Positions 1,960 through 37,289 of a stretch of DNA of 40,690 bases are shown here, piece by piece; positions within the stretch are counted from its first letter, which is position 1, and each line of letters begins with the position of its first letter. The notes beneath the pieces were generated by a model. It made no database searches, had not been told where the DNA came from, and worked only from the letters and a program-made list of their open reading frames with translations. This stretch comes from an uncultured bacterium (GTDB taxonomy: Bacteria; Verrucomicrobiota; Lentisphaeria; Victivallales; Victivallaceae), in contig CACZPY010000302.1 in assembly GCA_902783135.1 (NCBI GenBank), positions 1 through 40,690 of the forward strand. The letters are read 5' to 3'. The position numbers and the translations under genes are program-made.

Positions 1960-2711
1960 GTTAAAATCTCCGGTTCGTTATCGGTTATGAGAATTTGATG
2001 TTCGAAATGCGCGCTCAGACTGCCGTCGCGGGTACGGGCGGTCCAGTGGTCGTGACGGTCGAGCACCACGTGCCAGTCGCCGGCGGTGAACATGGGTTCG
2101 ATGCAGATCACCATTCCGGGCAGCAGCGGGGCGCCGCGTCCGCGCCCGGTGAAGTTCGGCACTTCGGGCGGTTCGTGGAGCTTGATGCCGCAGCCGTGTC
2201 CGACATAGTCGGTGACGACCCCGAGTTTGCGGCGTTTGGCGACCTGTTCGACCGCGTGCGAGATATGCGATATGGTGTCGCCGCATTTCGCCGCGCGGAT
2301 CCCGGCATTGAGCGCTTCGCGCGTGCCCTCCATGAGATTGCGCTTTTCATCGGTCATCGGGGCGAAGGTGAAAGTCAGCGCGGTGTCGCCCACGGCGCCG
2401 TCGATCATGACGCCGACGTCGATGCTCACGAGGTCGTCGTCCTGAATGATCCGCTCGGGCACGCCGATGCCGTGCACGACTTCGTCATTGATCGAGATGC
2501 AGACGTTGCCGGGGTAGCCGCAGTAGTTCAGAAAGGCGCTTTTGCCGCCGGTCTCGCGGATCAGCGCCCCCGCCGCCTGATCGAGTTCCCACGTGGACAT
2601 CCCCGGGCGGGCGACCGCCGCCAGCTGGTCGCGCAGCCACCCCGACGCCTGCGCGGCGCGGCGGATGCGGATTATTTCCTCGGGGGTGTGGATGATATAC
2701 GAACGGGGCAT
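1941..2711 (-). CDS. map: Type I methionine aminopeptidase
   Basis: Removes the N-terminal methionine from nascent proteins in the cytoplasm, using a dinuclear metal centre. At 256 residues it is the short type Ia form without an N-terminal zinc finger. Visible family elements are [25 protein letters not shown] (split here by position: the first metal Asp lies in the SIDVG segment, residues about 94-98), then [16 protein letters not shown] with the catalytic His, the late CIEPMF metal Glu, and FEHQILIT near the end. It lies 3 bp after adk and overlaps infA, so it is part of the adk-map-infA transcript. Confidence 0.97.
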
Positions 2712-2714
2712 GAT

Positions 2715-3380
2715 CTATTCCAATTCCTCTGCGATCCGTTTCATCATGGCGGGGATGGTGTCCGCCGCGACGGCGAAGAGCAGACCGTTTTTGCGGTAGT
2801 AGTCGACGAGAGGGGCGGTCTGACCGTAGAATACCTTGAGCCGCGACTTGGCGGTCTCGAGCGAGTCGTCGGGGCGCTGGAAAAGTTCGCCGCCGCAAAT
2901 GTCGCAGACGCCCTCTTGTTTGGGCGGGCGCGAGATCTTGTTGTAGATGGCGTCGCACTTGCGGCAGTTCATCCGGGCGGTCAGGCGGCGCAGCAGCGTT
3001 TCGTCGTCGACTTCGAAGAAAACCACCGCATCGATGTTGAGTTCGAGTTCGCGCAGGGCGTCTTCCAGAAGTTCCGCCTGCCGGATGGTACGCGGGAACC
3101 CGTCGAGGATGAAACCCCGGCGGCAGTCCGGTTCGGCGATGCGGCGGCGCACCATGCCCGCGACGAGTTCGTCGGGGACGAGCTGCCCGGACTTCATCAG
3201 CGCCTCCGCCTGTTTCCCGGCGGGGGTTTGGGCGGCGACTTCGCCGCGCAGGATGTCGCCGGTGGAGATGTGGGCGATGTGGTATTTGGCGACCATCTCC
3301 TTGGCGATGGTCCCCTTGCCGGCGCCGGGAGCGCCGAGGAAGATCAGATTTTTTCTGCGGAGTTCCGGTATGTCGCTCAT
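2715..3380 (-). CDS. adk: Adenylate kinase (zinc-lid, long form)
   Basis: Catalyses ATP + AMP = 2 ADP in the cytoplasm. The 221-residue protein has the P-loop GAPGAGKGT at about residues 16-24, ISTGDILR, the GFPRTIRQAE AMP-binding segment and a long LID domain. The lid carries two CxxC pairs, CRKC and CDIC, which is the Zn-binding lid seen in many Gram-positives, Thermus and PVC bacteria but absent from E. coli Adk. It lies between hisS (21 bp upstream) and map (3 bp downstream). In the classical spc operon secY occupies the upstream position that hisS holds here. Confidence 0.97.
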   Translation of the reverse strand: MSDIPELRRKNLIFLGAPGAGKGTIAKEMVAKYHIAHISTGDILRGEVAAQTPAGKQAEALMKSGQLVPDELVAGMVRRRIAEPDCRRGFILDGFPRTIRQAELLEDALRELELNIDAVVFFEVDDETLLRRLTARMNCRKCDAIYNKISRPPKQEGVCDICGGELFQRPDDSLETAKSRLKVFYGQTAPLVDYYRKNGLLFAVAADTIPAMMKRIAEELE

Positions 3381-17556: not shown

Positions 17557-18432
17557 ATGAACACCTTGTACGAAAGATTCCGCATCGCCCCCGGAACCCG
17601 GGTGGATCTGCGCAATTGGGACCCCGAACCGCCCGTGGATTTCGGCGATCGGGAAAAGGCGCTCAAACTGCTCGGGGAGAACAACCGCCGCATCGCCCGG
17701 CTGCAGAACGACCTCTACTTCGAAAACCGCCAGTCGCTGCTGATCGTGCTGCAGGCGATGGACGCCGGCGGCAAGGACGGCACGATCAACAACGTCTTCG
17801 CCGCCATGAACCCGCAGGGCTGCCGGGTGCAGTCCTTCAAGACGCCGACCCAGCTGGAACAGTCGCACGACTTTCTGTGGCGGGTGCATACGGTGGCGCC
17901 GCGCACGGGCGAAGTGGTGATCTTCAACCGTTCGTACTACGAGGCGGTGCTGGTCGAAAAGGTCCACGCCTTCGCTTCGGAGCGCGAGATCGAGTTCCGC
18001 TACAAGGCGATCAACCACTTCGAGGAACTGCTGAACTTCCACCGGACGCGGATCGTCAAGTTCTATCTGCACATCAGCAAGGATGAACAGCTGCGGCGCT
18101 TCATGCGGCGGCTGGAAAGTCCGGCGAAGCACTGGAAGATCAGCGCCAACGACTATCCGGAACGCAAGTTCTGGAACGACTACATCGCGGCGTTCGAGGC
18201 GGCGCTGACGCACTGTTCGAGTGCGGCGGCACCGTGGTTCGTGATCCCGGCGAACAACAAGACTTTCCGCAATCTGGCGGTGTCGCAGATCATCCTGCAG
18301 ACGCTGGAGGATATGAAGATCCGGGTGCCGGAGCCGTCGGTGGACCTCCAGCAGACGCGGAAACTGGCGGCGATCGAACTTGCGCAGCAGCGCAAGGAGA
18401 CCAGACGCAACAAAGCGCAGAAGGAAAAGTGA
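17557..18432 (+). CDS. PPK2-family polyphosphate:nucleotide phosphotransferase
   Basis: Probable polyphosphate kinase 2 that transfers phosphate from polyphosphate to AMP/ADP or the reverse. The 291-residue protein has the Walker A-like AMDAGGKDGTI, FKTPTQLEQSHDFLWRVH, the NRSYYEAVLVEKVH segment (Walker B/lid region), and FYLHISKDEQLRRFMRRL followed by WKISANDYPERKFWNDY. This single-domain layout with N-terminal extension fits the PPK2 AMP/ADP phosphotransferase group. The exact class needs alignment. GGAGG lies 5 bases before the chosen ATG. It lies 22 bp after ispF and 2 bp before an unknown gene. Confidence 0.9.
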   Translation: MNTLYERFRIAPGTRVDLRNWDPEPPVDFGDREKALKLLGENNRRIARLQNDLYFENRQSLLIVLQAMDAGGKDGTINNVFAAMNPQGCRVQSFKTPTQLEQSHDFLWRVHTVAPRTGEVVIFNRSYYEAVLVEKVHAFASEREIEFRYKAINHFEELLNFHRTRIVKFYLHISKDEQLRRFMRRLESPAKHWKISANDYPERKFWNDYIAAFEAALTHCSSAAAPWFVIPANNKTFRNLAVSQIILQTLEDMKIRVPEPSVDLQQTRKLAAIELAQQRKETRRNKAQKEK

Positions 18433-19863: not shown

Positions 19864-20874
19864 TCAGTAGAACATCCACTCGAGATAGCGTACCTTATCC
19901 TCCGGAGGACCGGAAACGGGAAACGCGGCGAAACTGAAGGTCAGGCGCTTGAAGGGGCGCTTCCGAGATTTCGGCGCCTCGACGGTGACGGTGTAGTTGC
20001 CGCTTTCGGTGCGGGCGAGCGGGGACAGTTTGGCGAGGAGTTCGGCATCCAGCGTTTCGCTCAGCGGGGTGCGTTCGTCGATCCAGGCGTCGATCGCTTC
20101 GCGGACCTCGGAGACCTCGCCGTCTTCGAGCTTGCAGTAGGATTTCAGCATGTCGTCGGAGGCGTTGAGCAGCGACGGCGCCCCCGACAGCGTCACGGTA
20201 TCGGCGGGAGGGATCAGCCGGATGTCGCTGAGCCGCCCCTGACGGTCGGTGGTGAAAAGGTCGCGGAAGGCGGGCAGATAGAGCAGTTCTTCGCGGAACT
20301 GCATGGCGGCGTTGCGGGGCAGGGGCTTCATGCCGAGTTCGTCGTAGTTGGGTTCTTCCAAGCCGTCGTCGCCGGTGGTGTCGCCGTTGGAATCGATGTA
20401 GTCGGCGATCTGACTGCGCAGCGCGGTGACGGCGTCGGTCCAGTCGGTGTCGTCGTCGTGGTTGGCGGCGAGCGAGTTTAGGCTGGATGCGTAGGCGGAC
20501 GAGGACAGATCGATCCCGCTGGCGGCGTCGGAGATGGTGAACTGGACCTCCTCGCCGTAGTAGTCGATCACATGGGGAACGCGGTCCGCCATGTAGCGGT
20601 CGTAGTCGTAGTCGTCGTAGATGGCTTCGCCCAGTTGTTCGGTGCTGGAGTAGTAGCTGCGGTCGGCGGCGATCAGCCATTGCACGCGGTTGGCGACGCC
20701 CTCGGCGACGAGCATGGAGCGCTGCAGCCGGACGTGCGATCCGACGTTGAAACTGCCCGCCTTGGCGAGGGCGAGCGCGGCGGTGGTGAGCACTCCGGCG
20801 GTGAAGATCAGGCACAGTACCGAGATCAGCGCGGCGCCGGATTCCGGATCGTGGGCGGCATGTCGTATCTGCAT
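19864..20874 (-). CDS. gspK: Type II secretion minor pseudopilin GspK
   Basis: The largest minor pseudopilin, which caps the pseudopilus tip with GspI and GspJ. The 336-residue protein starts with a short leader ending PESG and continues AALISVLCLIFTAGVLTTAA, the GspK-type hydrophobic segment lacking the usual Glu5. A large globular domain follows, with an IDLSSSAYASSL stretch and later LLNASDDMLKSYCKLEDGEV, the helical helix-hairpin-helix-like region of GspK. It is the only pseudopilin here with Gly at the -1 position. It follows gspJ by 3 bp. Confidence 0.88.
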   Translation of the reverse strand: MQIRHAAHDPESGAALISVLCLIFTAGVLTTAALALAKAGSFNVGSHVRLQRSMLVAEGVANRVQWLIAADRSYYSSTEQLGEAIYDDYDYDRYMADRVPHVIDYYGEEVQFTISDAASGIDLSSSAYASSLNSLAANHDDDTDWTDAVTALRSQIADYIDSNGDTTGDDGLEEPNYDELGMKPLPRNAAMQFREELLYLPAFRDLFTTDRQGRLSDIRLIPPADTVTLSGAPSLLNASDDMLKSYCKLEDGEVSEVREAIDAWIDERTPLSETLDAELLAKLSPLARTESGNYTVTVEAPKSRKRPFKRLTFSFAAFPVSGPPEDKVRYLEWMFY

Positions 20875-20877
20875 GGT

Positions 20878-21564
20878 TCAGTTTCCCGTGTTGGCGGTGC
20901 TGTTTTCGGGCGGCAGGCGGTAGCCGAAGGAACTGTGGAGCGAGGTGCCGGCGGTGCGGCGCAGCCAGTGTTCCCGGCGGCCGTCCTTCCACTCGACGGT
21001 CATGCGGATGGCGAGGGGAATGGCGGCGTGTTCGTCTTCGTCCCAGACGTCGAACCATTCGATCTCCGCCTCCTCGGATTCGCTCTCCTCGGCGTACTGG
21101 AAAGCGACGGAGGCGATATTGGCGGCGATGACCTCCCGGGTGAAGTACTGGGGATCCTCGTCGTATTCCTCGTCCCACGGCGGTCGGGGATAGTACGAGT
21201 AGTAGGCGACGAGTTCGTCCTCCTCGAGGCGCAGGCGGATGAAGATCAACGCTCCCGGAGTCTGATCGTCGGCGCGGCGCAACGCGGTGAACATCACGGT
21301 GTCCTGCTCGCCTGCGAAGACGAAGCGCGACACGCCCTCGGAGTCGACCCACTTGAAGGGCACGGCGTTGCGCACGGCGCCGTCCCAGATGCGGTCGATC
21401 GCCATGTACTCCCGCAGCCTTCCGGTGGCGCGCACGGCGCGGTTGTAGCCGTCGTAGAAAATCTTGCCGGCGCTGCCGATGATCATGGCGACCATCAGCA
21501 TCACCGCCATGGCGACGACCATCTCGATCAGCGTGAAGTTTTTCTTATTCGTCGCGGTCTTCAT
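20878..21564 (-). CDS. gspJ: Type II secretion minor pseudopilin GspJ
   Basis: A 228-residue minor pseudopilin with the N-terminal signal MKTATNKKN-FTLIEMVVAM followed by a membrane helix (AVMLMVAMIIGSAG). The mature domain has the GspJ-like layout, including IDRIWDGAVRNAVPF and a late acidic DEDEHAAIPLAIRMTVEW. The residue before FTLIE is Asn, not the Gly usually required by prepilin peptidase. It overlaps gspI by 20 bp and is followed by gspK after 3 bp, consistent with the I-J-K tip complex being co-translated. Confidence 0.88.
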   Translation of the reverse strand: MKTATNKKNFTLIEMVVAMAVMLMVAMIIGSAGKIFYDGYNRAVRATGRLREYMAIDRIWDGAVRNAVPFKWVDSEGVSRFVFAGEQDTVMFTALRRADDQTPGALIFIRLRLEEDELVAYYSYYPRPPWDEEYDEDPQYFTREVIAANIASVAFQYAEESESEEAEIEWFDVWDEDEHAAIPLAIRMTVEWKDGRREHWLRRTAGTSLHSSFGYRLPPENSTANTGN

Positions 21565-21955
21565 AGTCGAATCGGTCGATGTTCACTTCCGCCATGGTCT
21601 TGCCGTCGGACTGGCGCATTATGGCGATGTTCCAGCGCAGGAGCGGCAGCTGCCCCTCCAGATCCTCATAGTCCTCGGGCAGCCCCTCGGGGTCGCCGCA
21701 GTTGACCTCGACGGAGTATCCGGGGTAGGGGAAGAACTCTTCGGGGATGGTGGTGTTGTCTTGGTTCTGGAGCATCAGGTATTCGGCGGCCTGGGCGAGC
21801 ATGTGCTCGGACTCCCACTTTTCGACCGCTCCGGCGACGCGCGAACTCGCGCTGATCGACAGCTGGAGCAGTCCGGCGAGGCTGAGCGACAATATCGCCA
21901 ATGCCACCACGACTTCGATCAAGGTGAATCGCCGGGTCCGGGGGAGCCGTTTCAT
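21545..21955 (-). CDS. gspI: Type II secretion minor pseudopilin GspI
   Basis: A 136-residue minor pseudopilin. The N-terminus MKRLPRTRR-FTLIEVVVAL leads into the hydrophobic helix AILSLSLAGLLQLSI, as in GspI, which starts assembly of the pseudopilus tip. An Arg occupies the -1 position. The start at 21955 overlaps the gspH stop by 4 bp, and the 3' end overlaps gspJ by 20 bp. A longer in-frame opening exists upstream, but it reads through gspH in another frame and is not used. Confidence 0.87.
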   Translation of the reverse strand: MKRLPRTRRFTLIEVVVALAILSLSLAGLLQLSISASSRVAGAVEKWESEHMLAQAAEYLMLQNQDNTTIPEEFFPYPGYSVEVNCGDPEGLPEDYEDLEGQLPLLRWNIAIMRQSDGKTMAEVNIDRFDYEDRDE

Positions 21956-22536
21956 TTGGGTTCCTCCTCCTTGACTTCGATCAGCCGCCCGGTGAGGGGG
22001 GATATCTCGTACTTGCGCGCGAGTTCGCCGCATTCCACCTCGACGAGGTGCGTTCCCCCCACGAAGCCGTCGGCGTAGAAACGGAAGGTCCGTTCGCCTT
22101 CGGGGAGGTATTCGGCGTTCGCCGTATCCTCGTCCTGCTGCCGCTGTTCGACGATGGAGACCTTCTTTTCGGCGGTCTCGACGACGGGTTCGCCGCGGTT
22201 CTCGACGGCGGAGATCGTGATCTTTTCTGGGTAGCTCCACTTGAGCACCGGCGGCGGAGCTTCGTCGCTGAAACTCAGTTCCTCGTGTTCGGCTGCGGTC
22301 ATGCGCCGGCAGGCGGCGAAGGCGCGGGCGTCGGTGTTGAGGTAGACGTCCCAGGTGCATCCTTCCTCGGTCGCGCGGTAACGCACGCGGGCGAAGTAGG
22401 CTTCGAGGTTCTGCGAAAAGTTCTCCATCGCCCGCGCGTCGGATTCGCTGCGCAAGGTGGTCACCGCCAGCGCGGTGCTCAACGCGATCACCGTGATGAC
22501 GACTACCAGTTCCAGCAGCGTGAAGCGGCGGATCAT
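21952..22536 (-). CDS. gspH: Type II secretion minor pseudopilin GspH
   Basis: A 194-residue minor pseudopilin starting MIRR-FTLLELVVVITVIAL, an unusually short leader of four residues with Arg at -1. The GspH-type mature domain follows: an early helix with ENFSQNLEAYFARVRYRATEEG, the classical stretch selecting aligned variables for GspH/FimT, then a beta-rich part with GERTFRFYADGFVGG. It lies 49 bp after gspG and overlaps gspI by 4 bp. Confidence 0.87.
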   Translation of the reverse strand: MIRRFTLLELVVVITVIALSTALAVTTLRSESDARAMENFSQNLEAYFARVRYRATEEGCTWDVYLNTDARAFAACRRMTAAEHEELSFSDEAPPPVLKWSYPEKITISAVENRGEPVVETAEKKVSIVEQRQQDEDTANAEYLPEGERTFRFYADGFVGGTHLVEVECGELARKYEISPLTGRLIEVKEEEPK

Positions 22537-22585
22537 GAAAACGGTTCCGTCCGAAACGGAGGGCGGGCGCGCGGAACGCTGCCCG

Positions 22586-23017
22586 CTACTCCCAGTTGTT
22601 GATGTCGGCGTTGTCGCCGGTGCCGCCGACCTGACCGTCGGCGCCGAGGCTCGACAGGTCGTACTCGCGCCCGTCCTCGCCGGGGATCGTATAGACGTAC
22701 TCGTTGCCCCACGGATCCTTGGGCACGACGGCTGGCTTCAGGTAGGGGCCGTTCCACTTTTCGTTGTTGTCGGTGTTTTCGACCAGAGCCTGAAGTCCGG
22801 CGTCGGCGCTCGGGAAACTGCCGACGTCGAGTTTGTACTGCATCAGCGCGTCGTCGATCAGTTTGACCTGGGTCTTCGCGGCTCCGACGTTCGCCTTCTT
22901 GACGTAGTTCATGTAGAGCGGCGTGGCGACCCCGGCGAGCGTGACGAGGATCATGATGACCACCACCACTTCGATCAGCGTGAAGGCGCTGCGGCGGATT
23001 TTGCGATTGCGATTCAT
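22586..23017 (-). CDS. gspG: Type II secretion major pseudopilin GspG
   Basis: The main pseudopilus subunit. The 143-residue protein starts MNRNRKIRRSA-FTLIEVVV, continues in the long helix IMILVTLAGVATPLYMNYV, and has the GspG hallmarks DDALMQYKLDVGSFPSADAG, KWNGPYLKP, PKDPWGNEYVY and a C-terminal YDLSSLGADGQVGGTGDNAD, which supplies the calcium-binding loop. Ala replaces Gly at -1. It starts 7 bp after gspF. Confidence 0.96.
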   Translation of the reverse strand: MNRNRKIRRSAFTLIEVVVVIMILVTLAGVATPLYMNYVKKANVGAAKTQVKLIDDALMQYKLDVGSFPSADAGLQALVENTDNNEKWNGPYLKPAVVPKDPWGNEYVYTIPGEDGREYDLSSLGADGQVGGTGDNADINNWE

Positions 23018-23024
23018 AGAAGCA

Positions 23025-24229
23025 TTACCCTCCCTGACTTATTGAATTGATCTCCATCATGGCGATGAAGATGGATACCACCACGACCAGAACCACTCCG
23101 GCGAGGAAGACGATCACCGCCGGTTCGAAGAGACTCAAGAGGCGTTTGATCTTGAGTTTGGTGTCGTTTTCGAGGTTTTCGGCGATCTTGACCAGCATTT
23201 CGCCCACGGTGCCCGACTCCTCGCCGACGCGGAGCATCGGGGTCAGACTGGAGGGCAGAAACGGGTTGTCGCGGAAGGCGCCCGAAAGTTTGTCGCCGCT
23301 CTTGAGCTTGCGGTCGATGCCGTCGAAGGCGCGGGCGATCACCGGATTGGAGATGATCCGCCCCGAGATCCGGACGGTGCGGATGATCTCGACGTGGTTT
23401 GAGATCAGTATGGCGAGCGTGCGGATGTACTTGCACATCTCGAGATCGACCATCACCCGTCCCAGCAGCGGTAGCTTCAGCACGAACTTGCTCCAGCGCC
23501 AGCGCAGTTCGTTTTCGCCGAGCATCGCGCGCAGACCGAAGAACAGCAGCACCAGCGCCAGCGGGATCAGCCACCACGCCCACGCGAAGAAGGTACTGAC
23601 GCCGGTGAGCATCTGCATCGTGGGCGGCAGATCGCGTCCCATGTCGAGGAAGATCTTGGAAAAGCGCGGCACGAAGACGGTGAAGAGCAGCACCGTGACG
23701 ATCAGCGTGATGGTCAATATGGCGAGGGGGTAGATCGAACTGGAAACGACGAAGTCCTTGAGTTCCTTGCTCTCGCCCATGAATTTGTGCAGTTCCCGCA
23801 CCACGTCGGGCAGACAGCCGGTCTCTTCGCCGCTTTCGATGAGGTTCGCGTAGTAGCCGGGGAAGAGTTTGCCGTGCTGACGCACCAGCTCCGAAAACTT
23901 CTTGCCCTCGTGGAGCCCCTGCCGCAGCGAGTTCACGAAGTCGCGCTGATCCTTTTCGGAGGTGCTGTCGGCGATGATCCCGAGCGCCCGTTCGAGCGGG
24001 ATGAACGAATCGAGCAGCGGCGAAAGCTGGCGGGTGAACTCAAAGGTGTTGATCTTCTTGCGGTGCAGCGAAAAGGCGTTGCCGCCCTCCTCGTCGACCT
24101 CCCCGCAGTAGCGGATCGGACGCAACTGGCGGCTGCGGAGCTTGTTCAGCGCCTCCTTTTCGTTATCCGCCTCGATCAGCACTTCGCCGGGGGCGGCGCC
24201 GGGGGCGACGGCGATGTAACGGTAGACAC

Positions 24230-24233
<4 letters not shown>
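23025..24233 (-). CDS. gspF: Type II secretion inner-membrane platform protein GspF
   Basis: A polytopic platform protein that links the ATPase GspE to the pseudopilus. The 402-residue protein has an N-terminal cytoplasmic part (FEFTRQLSPLLDSFIPLERAL), two homologous T2SSF helical domains and three membrane segments (about 165-190, 215-235 and 370-395). Family landmarks are YYANLIESGEETGCLPDVV, FVPRFSKIFLDMGRDLPPTMQ and the mirrored LTPMLRVGEESGTVGEMLVK. It overlaps gspE by 4 bp and precedes gspG by 7 bp. Confidence 0.96.
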
Positions 24234-25818
<1,585 letters not shown>

Positions 25819-25822
<4 letters not shown>

Positions 25823-28257
25823 AGCCAGAAATCCTTGTCGGTCAAAAGTTTCGGTTTGCTGTCCTTGGATTCCGGACGGTCGCCGAGCGTTTTGTCATGC
25901 TTGTTGAGCGCCTCAATGGCTTCGTTGTAGCGCTTGATCATATCTTCGACCGGGCTGTGCTCGTCGACGATGTACCCCGTCACCATCACCAGCACCTCGC
26001 TGCGTTCGACTTCGGCGTTGGTGTTGCCGACGAGGCGGTTGATCAGCGGGATCTTGTTGATGAAGGGCAGCGAATCGAGGTTGTCGTTCTTCTTTTCCTG
26101 GATCAATCCGCCGATGATCATGGTGTGACCGTCGGCGATGGTCATGGCGGTCTCGACGGTGCGCTTCCTGATCTCGGGCGAGTCGAGCGAACTGCTGGTG
26201 TTGGTCACCGCCTGCGACAACTCCTGTTTGACGTCGAGCGAGATCAGGTCGGTGCTTGTCACCTGCGGGGTCACGGTCAGGATGATGCCGGTGTTCTCGT
26301 AGTCGATCGAGTTTTGGGACGACCCGTTGCTCGAAGTGCTGGTGTAGGTGCTTTTTATCACCGGCACCCGGCTGCCGACCTGGATGTTCGCCTTGGTGTG
26401 GCTGGATACGAGGATCTGCGGGCAGGATATGACCTTCACGAGCCCGTTCCCGGCGAGCGCGCGGATGTACCCGAAGCGCCCCTGCGGATCGTTGGTCTTG
26501 CCGAGGTAGAAGGTGCCGCCGGTCTGCCGCTGGTCGCCGGTGGAGACCTGGGTCTGCTGACCGATGATCTGCCCGGCGTCGTTGTAGATGTTCTCGTGGG
26601 TGAAGGGATTGAGCGTGCCGCCGCCCGCGGCGTAGTTGGTGCCGAAGAGCGAAGTGATGTCGTTGCCGGTGCCGTGTCCGGAGAACTCCAGTCCGAACTG
26701 AGTGCTCTCGGAGAGGGTCACTTCGACCACCAGCACCTGCAGCAGCACCTGCGCCGGGACCACGTCGAGCCGGTCCAGCAGCGCCTTGATCGAAGCGTAG
26801 GTGCGCGGAGTGGTGCGGATCACGAGCCGGTTCAGCGTGCCGTCGGCGAAGATGCGGGTGATGTTGGCGAAGAGGTTGGACCCCTTGTCGATCTGCAGAT
26901 TGTTCGCGGCGTTGGCGACGGCGGTGTGGCTGTTGCGGTTGGCGAGGCTCGCCGCGGTGGTGCGGGCGGAGTTGGCGGCGCGGTTGACCTGCGAGTTGAC
27001 GGTCTCGATGCGGGTGCGCCCGGTGTCGGTGTCGATGTAGAGCGAAGTGCCCTGCACCTCGTAGATCACGGCGAGGGCGCGCGCCAGATTGGAGGCCTTG
27101 GTGTGGCGCACCTTGTAGACGAAGACGCGCTCCTGTTCGTCGTTGTCGGCGGTGTCGAGTAGTTCGATCCACTTGCGGATCTCGACGATCGCCTCCTGAG
27201 TGGCGGCGGTGGCGACGACCACGCCGAGGCGGTCGAGGCCGATCAGCTGCACCGAGCCGGGGGGTTCGTTGCGGTCGTTGGGCTTGACGACGTAGAAGCC
27301 CAGCACCGGCAGCACCTCCTGCAATTCGGTGATGAGCTTGTTGGGCAGCACATTGCGGCAGCCGACCACGGCGCGCGGCCAGTTCTGGCGGCCGTTGCGG
27401 TCGATGCATTCGAGGATCTGGCGGAGCTTATCCATGTTCTCCGGGGTGTCGCAGACCATGACCGCGTTGGGGCGGCTGAGTTCGATGCAGACGCCGCCGG
27501 GGGCGAGGAAGGGACGCAGCTGGATCGTCGCTTCGCGGGCGGTGGCGGTGGTGAGCGGGAAATAGAGGATGTTGCTGCCGTTTCCGTTTCCGGCTTTCTG
27601 GTCGGGCTGACCGGCGAGTTTGTTGCGCGCCATGATGCGGACCAGCGAATCGTCGACGCGGGCGGTGGCTCCGGCGACGTACAGCATCCGGTCGAAGGTG
27701 TTCCAGAGGTCGCGGCGGGTCATCGTGGAGTTGAGGTTCAGCGTGACCACGCTGCGCAGGTCGCTGTCGGCGACGAAGTTGAAGCCGAGGATGTCCGCGA
27801 AGGCGGAGAGCACGTCCAACAGCGGCGCGCTGTTGAAGATCAGCGACACCGGGATCTCCTCGTCGCCGTTGAGCGCCACGAAGTCGTCGTAGAAGGTCTT
27901 GCGGGCGGCTTTTTTGCCGTCCTTGCCCGGCTCCGGCGCCGCCGTCTTGTCCGCGGGTCCCTTGCCCTTTTCCAGCTGCTTGAGCTGGTCGTCGGTCACG
28001 GCGGGGCGGGGTTTGAAGGCGTTGGACCCCGCCTCGTCCGGTTCGCTCTTGTCGGTATGCCGCGAGGCGGTGGGATGCTCTTTTTCATCACGCCGGAGGA
28101 ATGCGAAGCGATCTTCCTTCTTTTCGGTCTCCGGAGCGGTTTCTTCCTTCTTCGCTTCCTCGTCGGAGGCGCACGACGTACACAGGCAGAGCGTCATCGC
28201 GGCGGCGAGCACTCCGCACCATCCGGCGATGCGGAACGGCAGTTTTCCGTTTTTCAT
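25819..28257 (-). CDS. gspD: Type II secretion secretin GspD
   Basis: The outer-membrane secretin channel. About 812 residues from the ATG at 28257, chosen because GGGAA lies 6 bases before it; ATGs at 28260, 28263 and 28284 are also in frame. It has an N-terminal signal (MKNGKLPFRIAGWCGVLAAA) ending in a lipobox-like CTSC, then a charged linker of about 85 residues. N0 (LLDVLSAFADILGFNFVADS) and several N-type repeats follow, then the secretin domain with VPAQVLLQVLVVEVTLSEST, VGSRVPVIKSTYTS and GHTMIIGGLIQEKK. A lipobox would suggest self-piloting to the outer membrane. It lies 64 bp after the gspC-like gene. Confidence 0.95.
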
Positions 28258-28321
28258 CATCATTTCCCGTACTCTATTGTTCATATGGATTTATTTTCAT
28301 GAAAACATTTCATAATCGTCT

Positions 28322-32164: not shown

Positions 32165-34258
32165 TCACCGCCATTTTTGCGCTCCCCCGTTTACCGGGGC
32201 CATCGGCGGAAATTCTCCCGGCTGCGCCGCACGGCCGCCGGACGGCGCGGAGGGTCGGGGCGCGCGTTTCGACCGGTCGGTCGGAATCGGCGCCCGGCGC
32301 ACCTTGCGGGCGCCGGATTTCTCCTTTCCCGCGGGTTTTGCAGCGGGCTTAGCAACGGGCTTGACGGCGGCGGACGTTTTTGCGCCCGCGGCGGTTTTTG
32401 CGACCGGCTTGGCGGCAGGTTTTGCCGCGGCGGGATCGGCGGTTTTCTTCTCCGGTTCGGATTCGGGGTGGTCGGGCGGCACGTTAAGCATCTTCAGCAC
32501 CCGCTCGGCGGTCCGGGAGAACACCGGGGCGGAGACGGTCCCGCCGAAGTGGCTCCCTTTCGGGTTGTCGGTGGCGACGACCATCACGATCCGCGGCCGG
32601 TGCGCCGGGACGAAACCGGCGAAACTCGCGTAATACTGGCTGGAGGAATATCCCTTGCCCTCGATGTACTTGTGGCTGGTTCCGGTCTTGCCCGCGACGT
32701 CGTAGCCCTTGACCGCCGCTTTGGTGGCGGTACCGCCCGGACGGGTCACGCTGATCATCATATCCACCAGCTGCGCCAGCGCCTCGGGGTGCTCGAACAG
32801 CTGCGGTTCGGCTTGACGCGGTTCGCGGGTGACTTCTCCGGTGGCGGGGTCCTCGATGCGGTCGATCATCCGCAGCTGCGGCAGTTTTCCACCGTTGGCG
32901 AGGGCGCAGTAGGCGCGCAATATCTGCAGCGCGGTCACACGGACGCTGTAACCGATCGGCATCCGGGTCACGGCGAGTCCGTCGCCCTTGCGGATGCGGA
33001 TCGGGGTCCCGCGCGTTTCGCCGGGGAGCGGCAGACCGGTGCGCGATCCGAAACCGAAGCTGGAAAATCCTTCGCAGAAGCGTTTTTCACCGAGCATCAG
33101 GGCGATCTTGGCGGTGCCGATGTTGCTCGACTTCTGGATCACTTCGCCGACGGTCAGTTTTTCGTTGTGGTGGGTGTCGGTCATCGGCTTGCCGAGATAG
33201 ACCCAGCGCCCCTTTTCGCAGTCGATCCGGGTATCGGGCTTGACGACCCCCCAGTCGAGCGCCTTGCCGACGGTGAATGGTTTGGCGACGGAACCGGGTT
33301 CGAAGCTGTCCATGGCGATCCGGGTGCGGATCGCTTCGTTTCGGAAGGTGGAACGGTCGTCGGGGTCGTAGTTGGGGCGCTGGGCGATGGCGAGGATGTC
33401 GCCGTCGGGGGAGGCGATGACGGCGTAGATCGCATCGGGGTTCCACTTGGCGTAGGCGGCGTCGAGTTCCTCTTCGAGGATCGCCTGGATGGGTTCGCTT
33501 ATGGTCAGGTAGATGTTGCGTCCGTCGCGGGCGTCGCTGATGTTCTGGATGCCGTAGTCGAGCGGGGTGCCGTCGCGGGAGATCTCCTCCTTTATGCGTC
33601 CGGTCTCGGGCGAAGTTTCCTTGGCGAGCTGTTTTTCGAGTCCCATCTTGGGCTTGGGCGCGTCGTTTTCGATGTTGATGTAACCGATGACGTTGGCGAG
33701 CATGCGCCTTTTGGGGTAGGTGCGGGTGTAGGTGTCGAGGAACGAAAACGCCCCGAGGGGAATGTCGTTGGCGCGCAGGTCGCGTTTGAGTTTTTCCGCC
33801 TTGTCGATGGGGACGGTCCTGCCGAGCTGCAGAAAGGAGTTCTGGCGCATTTCGGGCTGCCCGTTGGCGTCGAGCACGATCCGACCTTCCCTGTCGCGGC
33901 GGGGGCGGGTCGGGCTGAGCCGGTCGTAGAAATAGTCGAAGTCCCGGTCGAAGTGGATGCTCAGCAGCGCCGCCAACCGTTTGCGTTTGAGCGGCGATTT
34001 GATCTCGCAGGGCGAACACGATATCTTCACGCAGGGGAGGTTGCCGACGATCAGATAGCCGGTGCGGTCGAGTATCTCGCCGCGTCGGCCGGAGGTCTTG
34101 CGCACCGAGGTATAGCACTTTTTCGCTTCGGCGAGGTAGAAGTCGTGGTTCTTGACCTGTATCACGTAGAAGCGTACCGCCAGCGCCGCGGCGATCGGGA
34201 TCCAGAATATGGCGGCTATGCGGATCCGGGTGCGGACGGTGTCGTTGCCATTGTTCAT
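32165..34258 (-). CDS. ftsI: Division-type class B penicillin-binding protein (FtsI/PBP3)
   Basis: Septal peptidoglycan transpeptidase. The 697-residue protein has an N-terminal membrane helix (about 11-31), the RGEILDRTG motif of the dimerisation domain, and the three active-site motifs: SVAK with Ser323, SSN at 377-379, and KTGT at 524-527. The transpeptidase domain ends near residue 595. A tail of about 100 residues follows, rich in Ala, Pro and Lys (KPAAKPVAKTAAGAKT and similar), longer than in typical FtsI and histone H1-like in composition. GAGGAG lies 8 bases before the ATG. It follows the ftsL-like gene by 31 bp in the order mraZ-rsmH-ftsL-ftsI. Confidence 0.95.
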   Translation of the reverse strand: MNNGNDTVRTRIRIAAIFWIPIAAALAVRFYVIQVKNHDFYLAEAKKCYTSVRKTSGRRGEILDRTGYLIVGNLPCVKISCSPCEIKSPLKRKRLAALLSIHFDRDFDYFYDRLSPTRPRRDREGRIVLDANGQPEMRQNSFLQLGRTVPIDKAEKLKRDLRANDIPLGAFSFLDTYTRTYPKRRMLANVIGYINIENDAPKPKMGLEKQLAKETSPETGRIKEEISRDGTPLDYGIQNISDARDGRNIYLTISEPIQAILEEELDAAYAKWNPDAIYAVIASPDGDILAIAQRPNYDPDDRSTFRNEAIRTRIAMDSFEPGSVAKPFTVGKALDWGVVKPDTRIDCEKGRWVYLGKPMTDTHHNEKLTVGEVIQKSSNIGTAKIALMLGEKRFCEGFSSFGFGSRTGLPLPGETRGTPIRIRKGDGLAVTRMPIGYSVRVTALQILRAYCALANGGKLPQLRMIDRIEDPATGEVTREPRQAEPQLFEHPEALAQLVDMMISVTRPGGTATKAAVKGYDVAGKTGTSHKYIEGKGYSSSQYYASFAGFVPAHRPRIVMVVATDNPKGSHFGGTVSAPVFSRTAERVLKMLNVPPDHPESEPEKKTADPAAAKPAAKPVAKTAAGAKTSAAVKPVAKPAAKPAGKEKSGARKVRRAPIPTDRSKRAPRPSAPSGGRAAQPGEFPPMAPVNGGAQKWR

Positions 34259-34289: not shown

Positions 34290-34703
34290 TCAACGGGCGG
34301 CGGCGAATTTGCCTGCCTGGGCCGGGGCGCTTTCCGCCTGACGGAGATCCGGCGCGTCGTGGAGCCGGATGTCCCGGATCTGGCCGGGCAGCGGCGGCCG
34401 CAGCGGCAGTTTGAACTCGGCGATCCGGCGCCGGATGTACGGCCAGCCGGTGAGTTCGGCGTAGTCGACGCGGAGCCGCTCGATCTCGCGGCGGGTGCCG
34501 GCGATCTCGCGCTCGGTGCGGCGGATGCCGCGTTCGGTCTCGGCGATCTTCTGCCGCAGATAGATGTTGCCGTTGAAGAGCGCGGCGACGGCGAGACAGA
34601 AGAGCGCCGCCTTGACGGCGAACCACATCTTCGGCCACAGCCGGATCGCGAGATTGCCGCCCGTCGGGCGGGGACTTTGCGCCTGTCCGAATTGGATGTT
34701 CAT
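34290..34703 (-). CDS. ftsL: FtsL-like cell division protein
   Basis: A 137-residue bitopic protein with a basic N-terminus, one membrane helix (about 27-47, MWFAVKAALFCLAVAALFN), then a charged coiled coil (RQKIAETERGIRRTEREIAG, continuing to about residue 85). FtsL is poorly conserved in sequence, so the call rests on topology, size and position between rsmH and ftsI. AGGGG lies 6 bases before the ATG. An extra C-terminal stretch (PGQIRDIRLHDAPDLRQAES and on) goes beyond the usual FtsL length. Confidence 0.75.
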   Translation of the reverse strand: MNIQFGQAQSPRPTGGNLAIRLWPKMWFAVKAALFCLAVAALFNGNIYLRQKIAETERGIRRTEREIAGTRREIERLRVDYAELTGWPYIRRRIAEFKLPLRPPLPGQIRDIRLHDAPDLRQAESAPAQAGKFAAAR

Positions 34704-34752: not shown

Positions 34753-35700
34753 TCAAAGCTTCTCCGCCGCCCGGAGTTTCGCGCACGCGGCGCGGCGGTT
34801 CGCCGCCACCTCGGCGTCGCTGGCGACGACCGGCTTTTTGGTGACGATCCGCAGCGACGCCCGATGACCGCACCGGCAGACCGGCAACCCCGGAGGGCAG
34901 TGGCAGCCGGTGCTTTCGTCGCGGAAGAAGTTTTTGACGATGCGGTCTTCCAGCGAATGAAAACAGATCACGGCGATCCTGCCGCCCTTTTTCAACATCC
35001 TGACGCCGCTTTCGAGCGCGCGTTCCAATTGTCCGAGTTCGTCGTTGACGGCGATCCGCAGCGCCTGAAACACCAGTGTCGGATGCGGCAGCCTGCCCGG
35101 ACGCGATACCCCGAGCACCTCGTCGCAGAGCCGCACCAGATCGCGGGTCGTGCCGAAAGGCTGCGTCTCGCGCATCGCCACCGCGGCGCGGGCGAGTTTG
35201 CGCGCCTGCACGATCTCGCCGTACTCGCGGAATATCCGCGCCAACTCTGCCTCCGGTGCCTGATTCAGCAGCCGCCCCGCCGTCAGCGGATTGCGGTCGT
35301 CCATCCGCATGTCGAGCGGACCGTCGCTCCGCCACGAAAACCCCCGCTCCGGGGTGTCGATCTGCGGCGACGATACGCCGATGTCGAGCAATATGCCGTC
35401 GACTTCGCTCCAACCGATTCCGGAAGAAAACTCCGCCATCCGGGCGAAGTCCCCGCGCACCAGCGCGATCCTTCCGGACGCGAAGGAACACTTGTCCGCG
35501 GCGGCTTCCAGCGCGGCGGCGTCGCGGTCGATGCCCAATATCTCCAGACGCGGGAAACGCTTCAGCAGCAGCGCCGAATGACCGCCGCCGCCGACGGTCC
35601 CGTCGATCAGCCGCGCCGGGGCATCGGCCGGAAGATCCAGCAGTTCCGCCGCCTCTTCCGCCAGCACCGGTATATGTTCGAATTTCCGTTCCGCCGCCAT
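34753..35700 (-). CDS. rsmH: 16S rRNA m4C1402 N4-methyltransferase
   Basis: SAM-dependent methyltransferase acting on C1402 of 16S rRNA, also called MraW. The 315-residue protein has IDGTVGGGGHSALLLKRF (SAM-binding loop), GIDRDAAAL, LDIGVSSPQID, the MRMDDRNPLTAGRLL block, FREYGEIVQARKLAR and the signature CFHSLEDRIVKNFF. A late zinc-like cluster CHCPPGLPVCRCG precedes the C-terminal end. It follows mraZ by 33 bp. Confidence 0.97.
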   Translation of the reverse strand: MAAERKFEHIPVLAEEAAELLDLPADAPARLIDGTVGGGGHSALLLKRFPRLEILGIDRDAAALEAAADKCSFASGRIALVRGDFARMAEFSSGIGWSEVDGILLDIGVSSPQIDTPERGFSWRSDGPLDMRMDDRNPLTAGRLLNQAPEAELARIFREYGEIVQARKLARAAVAMRETQPFGTTRDLVRLCDEVLGVSRPGRLPHPTLVFQALRIAVNDELGQLERALESGVRMLKKGGRIAVICFHSLEDRIVKNFFRDESTGCHCPPGLPVCRCGHRASLRIVTKKPVVASDAEVAANRRAACAKLRAAEKL

Positions 35701-35733: not shown

Positions 35734-36246
35734 TCAGTGCTTCAAAATATCTCCGAGCAGCGCGGCGAGTCCGCCGTGGTCGTTTTCGCCGTCGCTGACG
35801 CTCTGAATATCGCTCAAATGTCCGGATATCTCCTCGGGCGAGGGTGTCCGCCAGCTTTCCGGGGAGCAGAGCCGGATATGCGTGATCGCGCCGACCAACT
35901 TCAATTGTCCCTTCACGCCGATCGAATCGAGCATACCGCGGTCGAGCGCGATGCGCCCCTGTTTGTCGCAGCGGCAGTTGCGGGCGCGCGAGCCGAGGTA
36001 GGCGAACGCCGCCTGCATCCGGGCGTTGGCGATGGCGTACTTTTTGGCGCGTTCGACGAACTCCATGAAGGTCTCCATCGGCAGCAGCAGCAGCGCCGCG
36101 TCGCGCGCGGGGATCAGCACCAGACTGGTGTCGCCGTTCCGGTTCCGCCATTCGCTGGGCAGAGTGACCCGGCACTGCGGATCGAGCGCGTGCTCGTATT
36201 CGCCCAGATAAAGCGTCGGTAAAGCGGTTTTCACAGCGTCGTCCAT
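35734..36246 (-). CDS. mraZ: MraZ transcriptional regulator
   Basis: A dodecamer- or octamer-forming DNA-binding protein that autorepresses the division cluster in bacteria where it has been studied. The 170-residue protein has two SpoVT/AbrB-like halves with the DXXXR motifs DPQCR (in HALDPQCRVTLPSEWR) and DKQGR (in CRCDKQGRIALDRG). It is somewhat longer than the usual 140-150 residues, with an acidic C-terminal tail. It opens the mraZ-rsmH-ftsL-ftsI run, and its own promoter overlaps four direct repeats at 36251-36290. Confidence 0.95.
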   Translation of the reverse strand: MDDAVKTALPTLYLGEYEHALDPQCRVTLPSEWRNRNGDTSLVLIPARDAALLLLPMETFMEFVERAKKYAIANARMQAAFAYLGSRARNCRCDKQGRIALDRGMLDSIGVKGQLKLVGAITHIRLCSPESWRTPSPEEISGHLSDIQSVSDGENDHGGLAALLGDILKH

Positions 36247-36250
36247 CGCC

Positions 36251-36290
36251 TGCCTATTTCATCCTATTCGATCCTATTCGCACCTATTTT
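36251..36290 (-). promoter_or_regulatory. Predicted MraZ operator: four 10-bp direct repeats
   Basis: On the plus strand CCTATT recurs at 36253-36258, 36263-36268, 36273-36278 and 36283-36288, exactly 10 bp apart (AATAGG on the coding strand). The array begins 5 bp before the mraZ ATG, and its outermost copy overlaps the -10 element. Arrays of short direct repeats at this place are the known MraZ binding sites in E. coli and mycoplasmas, although the repeat sequence here differs. Confidence 0.75.
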
Positions 36291-36314
36291 ACTCTTTCAA
36301 CGCCTTATTTTCAA
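36286..36314 (-). promoter_or_regulatory. Predicted sigma-70 promoter of mraZ
   Basis: On the minus strand TTGAAA (36309-36314), a 17-bp spacer, then TAAAAT (36286-36291). Transcription should start about 36279, within the repeat array, giving a leader of about 33 bases. Confidence 0.7.
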
Positions 36315-36438: not shown

Positions 36439-36446
36439 ACCCATAT

Positions 36447-37289
36447 ATGGCTGACAGATCAAAAAATACCGCTTCCGCCGCGGGAGGCGAACGGCGCGGG
36501 CGCAAGATGGCGCTGATCGCTCTGACGGCCGCCCTGCTGGTCGCGGGGGCGGCGGTCGCCGGAGTGATCGCCGCATTTCATACGCTCGGCCCGCTTTGGT
36601 TCGGCGACAATCCCCGGATGACGATCCGGCAGGTCAAGGTCGCCAGCGGCGGCTACTGGAACGACCGCGGCTACTGGAACAACCGCGAGGCCGAACTTCT
36701 GCGGCGTCTCGGTATCCGCCGGGGAATGACCCTCTTCGACGTCGATCCCGGCAAACTGCGCGCCGGTATCGAGCGCATCCCCTGCGTGGAAAGCGCCCGG
36801 GTGTATCGGGTGCTGCCGGATACGCTGCGCATAGAACTCATCGAACGCACTCCCCGTGCGGTGCTCTTCGACCGCACTTCGCCGCTGGTCGCCGACGAAA
36901 ACGGCATGGTGATCGAGCGGCGGGAATCGCTGGTCGCCACCGGCCGCTGGGATCTGCCGCTGATCTCCGGCGTGTCGCTCAAGTACCAGCCGGGGCAGAA
37001 GGATCCGCGGCTGGCTCCGGCGATGGAACTCATCATGCAGACGGTGAGCCGCTACCACAATTTCAAGGTCCGCGAAGTGGTGCTCAAGTCTCCGGAGCGC
37101 ATGGAGTGTTTTTTCAACTACGGCGGCGGCAGGACGATCTACCGGGCGATCTTCCCGGTGCGGCGGTATGAAAGCCGGATCGACGGACTGCTGCTGGCGC
37201 TGGAATCGGCGCTGATCGAAGTGCGGCGCTCGGGCGAGGACAAACGCAACTTCAATCTGTCCTTCGACGGGCAGGTGGTGATGAACTGA
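36447..37289 (+). CDS. ftsQ: FtsQ-like cell division protein
   Basis: A 280-residue bitopic division protein. The start at 36447 gives MADRSKNTASAAGGERRGRK, a basic cytoplasmic N-terminus, then a membrane helix (about 21-44). A POTRA domain follows, with RGMTLFDVDPGKLRAGIERI and PCVESARVYRVLPDTLRIEL, then an FtsQ beta domain with ERTPRAVLF and DENGMVIERR. A longer in-frame opening from 36315 exists, but it would begin before the predicted promoter. The gene is divergent from mraZ, so the usual mraZ-to-ftsQ order is broken. It is followed by purD after 42 bp. Confidence 0.85.
   Translation: MADRSKNTASAAGGERRGRKMALIALTAALLVAGAAVAGVIAAFHTLGPLWFGDNPRMTIRQVKVASGGYWNDRGYWNNREAELLRRLGIRRGMTLFDVDPGKLRAGIERIPCVESARVYRVLPDTLRIELIERTPRAVLFDRTSPLVADENGMVIERRESLVATGRWDLPLISGVSLKYQPGQKDPRLAPAMELIMQTVSRYHNFKVREVVLKSPERMECFFNYGGGRTIYRAIFPVRRYESRIDGLLLALESALIEVRRSGEDKRNFNLSFDGQVVMN

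Follow-up and report, generated by a model that had tools for sequence, protein, structure and literature searches.

The window, the whole stretch of 40,690 nucleotides that was analysed, derives from a genome assigned to the GTDB family of Victivallis vadensis (Lentisphaeria). On its minus strand mraZ is the first gene of the division cluster (dcw), ahead of rsmH, and the region upstream of mraZ carries a promoter and four short direct repeats, which are numbered here from the promoter towards the gene. The features are as follows.

35734-36246, minus strand: mraZ, encoding 170 amino acids (Pfam PF02381, 39.9 bits against a cut-off of 23)
34753-35700, minus strand: rsmH (mraW), second gene of the operon (Pfam PF01795, MraW, 1.9e-101)
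34290-34703, minus strand: gene for a small membrane protein at the place of ftsL, assigned from its location between rsmH and ftsI
32165-34258, minus strand: gene for an ftsI-type penicillin-binding protein (Pfam transpeptidase, 7.5e-65)
36309-36314, minus strand: -35 element TTGAAA of the mraZ promoter, 17 bp ahead of the -10 element
36286-36291, minus strand: -10 element TAAAAT of the mraZ promoter, whose final T is position 1 of the TAGG of box 1
36283-36288, minus strand: box 1, AATAGG, exact repeat, sharing AAT with the -10 element
36273-36278, minus strand: box 2, AATAGG, exact repeat, at the transcription start inferred from the -10 element
36263-36268, minus strand: box 3, AATAGG, exact repeat
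36253-36258, minus strand: box 4, AATAGG, exact repeat, 6 bp from the mraZ ATG (36246)

The MraZ protein also matches NCBIfam TIGR00242 (1.4e-13), with 51 bits against the conservative equivalog cut-off of 98, and it carries two DxXxR loops, an N-terminal D22-PQC-R26 with Gln24 at its centre and a C-terminal D94-KQG-R98. An AlphaFold monomer model (pLDDT 88) aligned with the MraZ proteins of Mycoplasma genitalium and M. pneumoniae with Z values of 16.7-17.1, and the structure matches include cryo-EM structures of M. genitalium MraZ on its promoter, with one entry, 9sz7, containing a four-box promoter. The small membrane protein encoded between rsmH and ftsI yielded no Pfam or NCBIfam match.

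A gene for an FtsQ-type POTRA protein (36446-37289, plus strand) is divergent from mraZ, across an intergenic region of 0.2 kb; a phmmer search of 145 relatives revealed no homologue of it upstream of mraZ. Downstream of ftsI, some genes on the same strand that lack a family match are followed by gspD, gspE and gspF of type II secretion (19864-28284, minus strand), which take the place of the usual mur genes. A terminator-like hairpin followed by T residues lies directly upstream of the mraZ promoter (36357-36334, minus strand), where one such structure was found against 0.4 expected. Scans for defence systems and against Rfam gave no match.

The repeats had been noticed in a sequence-only reading of the window, as four AATAGG boxes with an exact 10-bp period in the stretch from the mraZ -10 element to the ATG, the outermost overlapping the -10 hexamer and the array extending over the transcription start to within 6 bp of the ATG. 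Reading of the minus strand bears out this description throughout, with the start site placed from the -10 element, and a promoter scan returned TTGAAA-17-TAAAAT (36314-36286, minus strand) as a clear match. The same reading had held that the box is unlike the published ones, and AATAGG does indeed differ from the mycoplasma AAAGTGKN3 and from the GTG and TGGG cores. In form, the array is that of an MraZ operator, with at least three short direct repeats in 10-bp steps at the mraZ promoter and overlapping its -10 element, but its core is TAGG and not the canonical GTGK or TGGG.

The spacers between the successive boxes (TGCG, ATCG and ATGA) are mutually different and unrelated. The pattern AATAGGN4AATAGG has three matches in the window against 0.01 expected, namely the three adjacent pairs of the mraZ array, and a pattern scan found no exact copy elsewhere in the 2.64-Mb genome. 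When the 150 bp upstream were shuffled 20,000 times with dinucleotides preserved, no chain of four copies of a 6-mer arose at any period from 8 to 12, and a chain of three arose in 21 cases.

Conservation and promoter phase of the array

Comparison of related mraZ promoters, which the sequence-only reading had recommended as a check, was based on the MraZ genes of 78 genomes of the family together with samples from the order, class and phylum, making 255 distinct genes, to which E. coli and other named genomes were added. Phased TAGG-type boxes, three to seven in number, are present upstream of 118 of the 126 dcw mraZ genes of the lineage, all of which encode Gln-type proteins, while the remaining eight show no array of three by the criterion used. 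For the 69 dcw mraZ genes of the family, TAGG cores are separated by 10 bp in 112 cases, by 20 bp in 70, by 30 bp in 45 and by 40 bp in 8, and any distance that is not a multiple of 10 occurs at most three times. More generally, chains of at least three copies of a single 4-mer at period 10 occur in 172 of the 255 upstream regions, against none or one at each of the periods 7, 8, 9, 11, 12 and 13 and against 7 of 5,100 shuffled sequences. Boxes and phase are maintained across the families of the order and in other orders of the class, in the presence of wholly different spacers. The distance from the core of the last box to the start codon varies from 0 to 67 bp among the relatives, again with the phase kept, and in several of them box 4 abuts the ATG.

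The exact triple TAGGN6TAGGN6TAGG occurs in 32 of the 78 family genomes, at every place upstream of a dcw mraZ, and a regulon search of the 78 genomes detected none away from mraZ. In three of these genomes (G038, G049 and G053) the dcw mraZ had been missed by Pfam, and mraZ and rsmH were then found directly downstream from the triple, such that the array predicted the gene. Conversely, a single rsmH locus that lacks mraZ (G016) has no such array (n=1). At one locus (L091, G044:C186) the dcw mraZ is split into two reading frames, by a frameshift or a sequencing error, and the TAGG array is intact.

The array is also in register with the promoter. Among Gln-type genes, the final T of the -10 element falls on box position 1, at an offset of 0, 10 or 20, in 82 of 106 promoters, and in 52 of these the offset is 0. 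For the second kind of MraZ described below (MraZ2), the box hit by this T is the third one in 58 of 75 promoters, and the MraZ2 array begins two helical turns further upstream than that of dcw mraZ. The -10 element is thus the anchor of both arrays, an arrangement which fits the needs of a repressor that blocks RNA polymerase and is not expected of an element acting in the mRNA.

A second MraZ and the box words

Many genomes of the family carry two kinds of MraZ, the dcw protein encoded before rsmH and a solitary MraZ2, which is conserved in the order and the class. In the genome under study, mraZ2 and its array are located away from rsmH (G000:C300, about 17,580-18,145, minus strand, corresponding to about 2,580-3,145 of locus L055), the gene itself occupying about 17,580-18,120. 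The cultured Victivallis vadensis DSM 14823 likewise has both arrays, that of dcw mraZ in L269 and L080 and that of MraZ2 in L016. Its promoter reads TTGGAATTTT TTGGAATATA TTGGAAATAA TTGGAAACAA and carries four TTGGAA boxes at 10-bp steps. MraZ2 matches the Pfam MraZ family (45.2 bits) and also has a weak match to MazE. Upstream of 44 mraZ2 genes, TGGA cores are separated by 10 bp in 105 cases, by 20 bp in 71, by 30 bp in 46 and by 40 bp in 12. The two boxes are not mixed: across these 44 genes and the 69 dcw genes, TAGG is unphased upstream of mraZ2 and TGGA is unphased upstream of dcw mraZ. About 25 TGGA triples lie away from mraZ2, one per place and mostly with spacers containing G+C, and are not counted as targets.

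Like the dcw system of the same genomes, MraZ2 has a 10-bp array over its own promoter, of three to five boxes, with the box T coinciding with the final T of the -10 element. It differs in having the core TGGA, an N-terminal loop DANGR and the upstream shift already described, and its gene is followed, in a unit of two, by that of a small membrane protein rather than by the dcw genes. The gene for this protein follows mraZ2 in 78 of the 92 MraZ2-type loci (for example L055, L058 and L025). It encodes about 75-90 amino acids, with a single hydrophobic segment close to the start, a Trp that is conserved and an end resembling P-x-LLLR, and the examples that were tested matched no family model.

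When the genes are sorted by the residue at position 24, the centre of the N-terminal DxXxR loop, the box words separate. Proteins with Gln24 are paired with TAGG in 115 cases and with TGGA or TGGG in none, with 8 lacking an assigned box and 3 tied; those with Asn24 are paired with TGGA in 79 cases and never with TAGG; those with Lys24 are paired with TGGG in 31 cases, TGGA in 6 and TAGG in none, and the two with Arg24 are paired with TGGG. The unit profiles are A-A-A-T(77%)-A(98%)-G(99%)-G(97%) for the Gln type, where 98% of 447 units have A at position 2, T(96%)-G-G-A(88%)-A(69%) for the Asn type and T(96%)-G-G-G(81%) for the Lys type, the T being preceded by G in every K-K type. MraZ proteins of other classes have (G)TGGG boxes, and further Lys-type proteins of Bacillota and Opitutia have AGTGG arrays. 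Four Lys24 proteins of other classes with the loop DEKGR (L214, L215, L218 and L266) have TGGA-like boxes and are exceptions to the pairing of Lys with TGGG.

Residue 24 separates TAGG (Gln) from TGGG (Lys or Arg) perfectly, and column 24 ranks first among all alignment columns, with a normalised MI of 1.0 for TAGG versus TGGG within dcw genes and of 0.93 over all three boxes and all genes. The C-terminal loop does not separate these two types, since DKQGR is common to most Gln-type and several Lys-type proteins. When the boxes are aligned at the T, a change of G to A at position 2 distinguishes the Gln-type box from TGGG. In the major groove, Lys and Arg commonly contact G, and Gln commonly contacts A. 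Given these contact habits, we propose that residue 24 may read box position 2, and that the change of G to A in the box is probably due to the exchange of Lys for Gln.

There are clear bounds to this proposal. Gln24 has a single origin, in one clade of 126 members (support 0.98), on a branch that also saw changes at many other residues; its association with TAGG goes back to one event, from which a causal role does not follow. One scan of named genomes from other phyla yielded no second origin, the members having Lys or a missed gene start. Moreover, members of the MraZ2 clade with Ser, Ala or Asp at residue 24 keep TGGA and, together with the six Lys24 proteins paired with that box, they demonstrate that residue 24 cannot set position 4, for which there must be other determinants. 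Residue 24 therefore does not encode the whole box, and only position 2 can be explained by it.

Interpretation of the array

The array is, with high probability, an operator at which MraZ represses its own dcw operon, with the box shifted to TAGG. The proposal of a probable MraZ operator in the sequence-only reading thus gains support, from the conservation of the array and from the agreement of the box with the type of MraZ, which recurs in two paralogs and several lineages and from which we infer binding by MraZ. MraZ would occupy all four boxes together, each helical turn presenting one box on the same face of the DNA; when bound, it would cover the -10 element along with the predicted start site and keep RNA polymerase out, and in this way it would restrain the production of MraZ itself and of the products of rsmH, ftsL and ftsI. 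In MraZ of the Lentisphaeria type the common (G)TGGG has given way to (A)TAGG, probably via the replacement of Lys by Gln at residue 24.

Direct repeats with a period close to this one are also bound by other proteins, for example the mycoplasma HsdC (PMC5282649), and the array could be the operator of a regulator other than MraZ. We consider this improbable because, in the 78 genomes, the exact triples always lie before mraZ and nowhere else, the MraZ2 paralog has an array of its own with a different box, lineages with Lys-type MraZ carry the canonical MraZ box at the same place and the one rsmH locus without mraZ is also without the array. Slightly less probable still is a function in the mRNA, with the repeats acting as stacked Shine-Dalgarno-like AGG motifs or as a translational element of the 5' leader. 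The boxes beyond the start site are transcribed and, in the window, the AGG of box 4 has a suitable position for a ribosome site, but box 1 lies inside the -10 element, ahead of the start site, and the phase of the array is locked to that element while its distance from the start codon varies; where box 4 abuts the ATG it is too close for a ribosome site, and there is no Rfam match. Identical 6-mers at an exact 10-bp period would also be produced by a young tandem duplication without function, an origin that is hardly credible and already refuted by the retention of boxes and phase between wholly different spacers across the order and the class.

Beyond autorepression at the dcw operon, we lean, with some reserve, towards a wider reading in which the two Lentisphaeria MraZ repressors are insulated from one another by their boxes, TAGG and TGGA, as against the widespread TGGG. 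The change of G to A at position 2 of the dcw box, together with Lys24 to Gln, would then constitute a specificity switch, and MraZ2 would stand at the head of a self-regulated unit, not described so far, that also encodes a small membrane protein. The new structures of MraZ bound to DNA make it timely to ask how the protein reads its boxes, and the lineage provides a natural experiment in which the architecture stays the same, the box takes three forms and one loop position distinguishes TAGG from TGGG. This points to a change of box as a means of keeping the two copies of a duplicated division regulator apart and, if the reading with two repressors is true, MraZ would be a natural and testable case of a specificity switch. 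A practical consequence is that searches for GTG or TGGG would miss the MraZ operators of this group.

Comparison with known MraZ systems

In E. coli and M. genitalium, MraZ represses its own gene, and the mycoplasma MraZ box has been defined as (AAAGTGKN3)3 (PMC8475190, PMC5282649, PMC7761207). In the mraZ promoter of Burkholderia cenocepacia, the start site is spanned by four repeats of 7 nt that alternate with 3-nt spacers, and this promoter was shifted by MraZ in gels (PMC7761207). In the open-licence papers searched, we found no description of a TAGG box, of two MraZ proteins with different boxes or of a link to residue 24; the architecture and the mode of action are already known, and the array matches the four-box MraZ complex of M. 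genitalium in its architecture.

Like the mycoplasma operator and the M. genitalium complexes (PDB 9r4j and 9sz7), the array has a period of 10, three to four boxes, a location at the mraZ promoter and no other site in the genome, and the proteins share the same fold (Z about 17) with about 16% sequence identity. The mycoplasma system has the core GTGK and an N-terminal loop DNKNR (Lys), whereas here the core is TAGG and the loop is DPQCR (Gln); autorepression would be a further trait common to both. The E. coli promoter, the sequence of which was read directly, likewise has 10-bp steps upstream of mraZ-rsmH-ftsL, and it differs in having three GTGGG boxes and the N-terminal loop DSKGR. The B. 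cenocepacia promoter resembles the present one in having four repeats downstream of the -10 element and over the start site, and its core is GTG.
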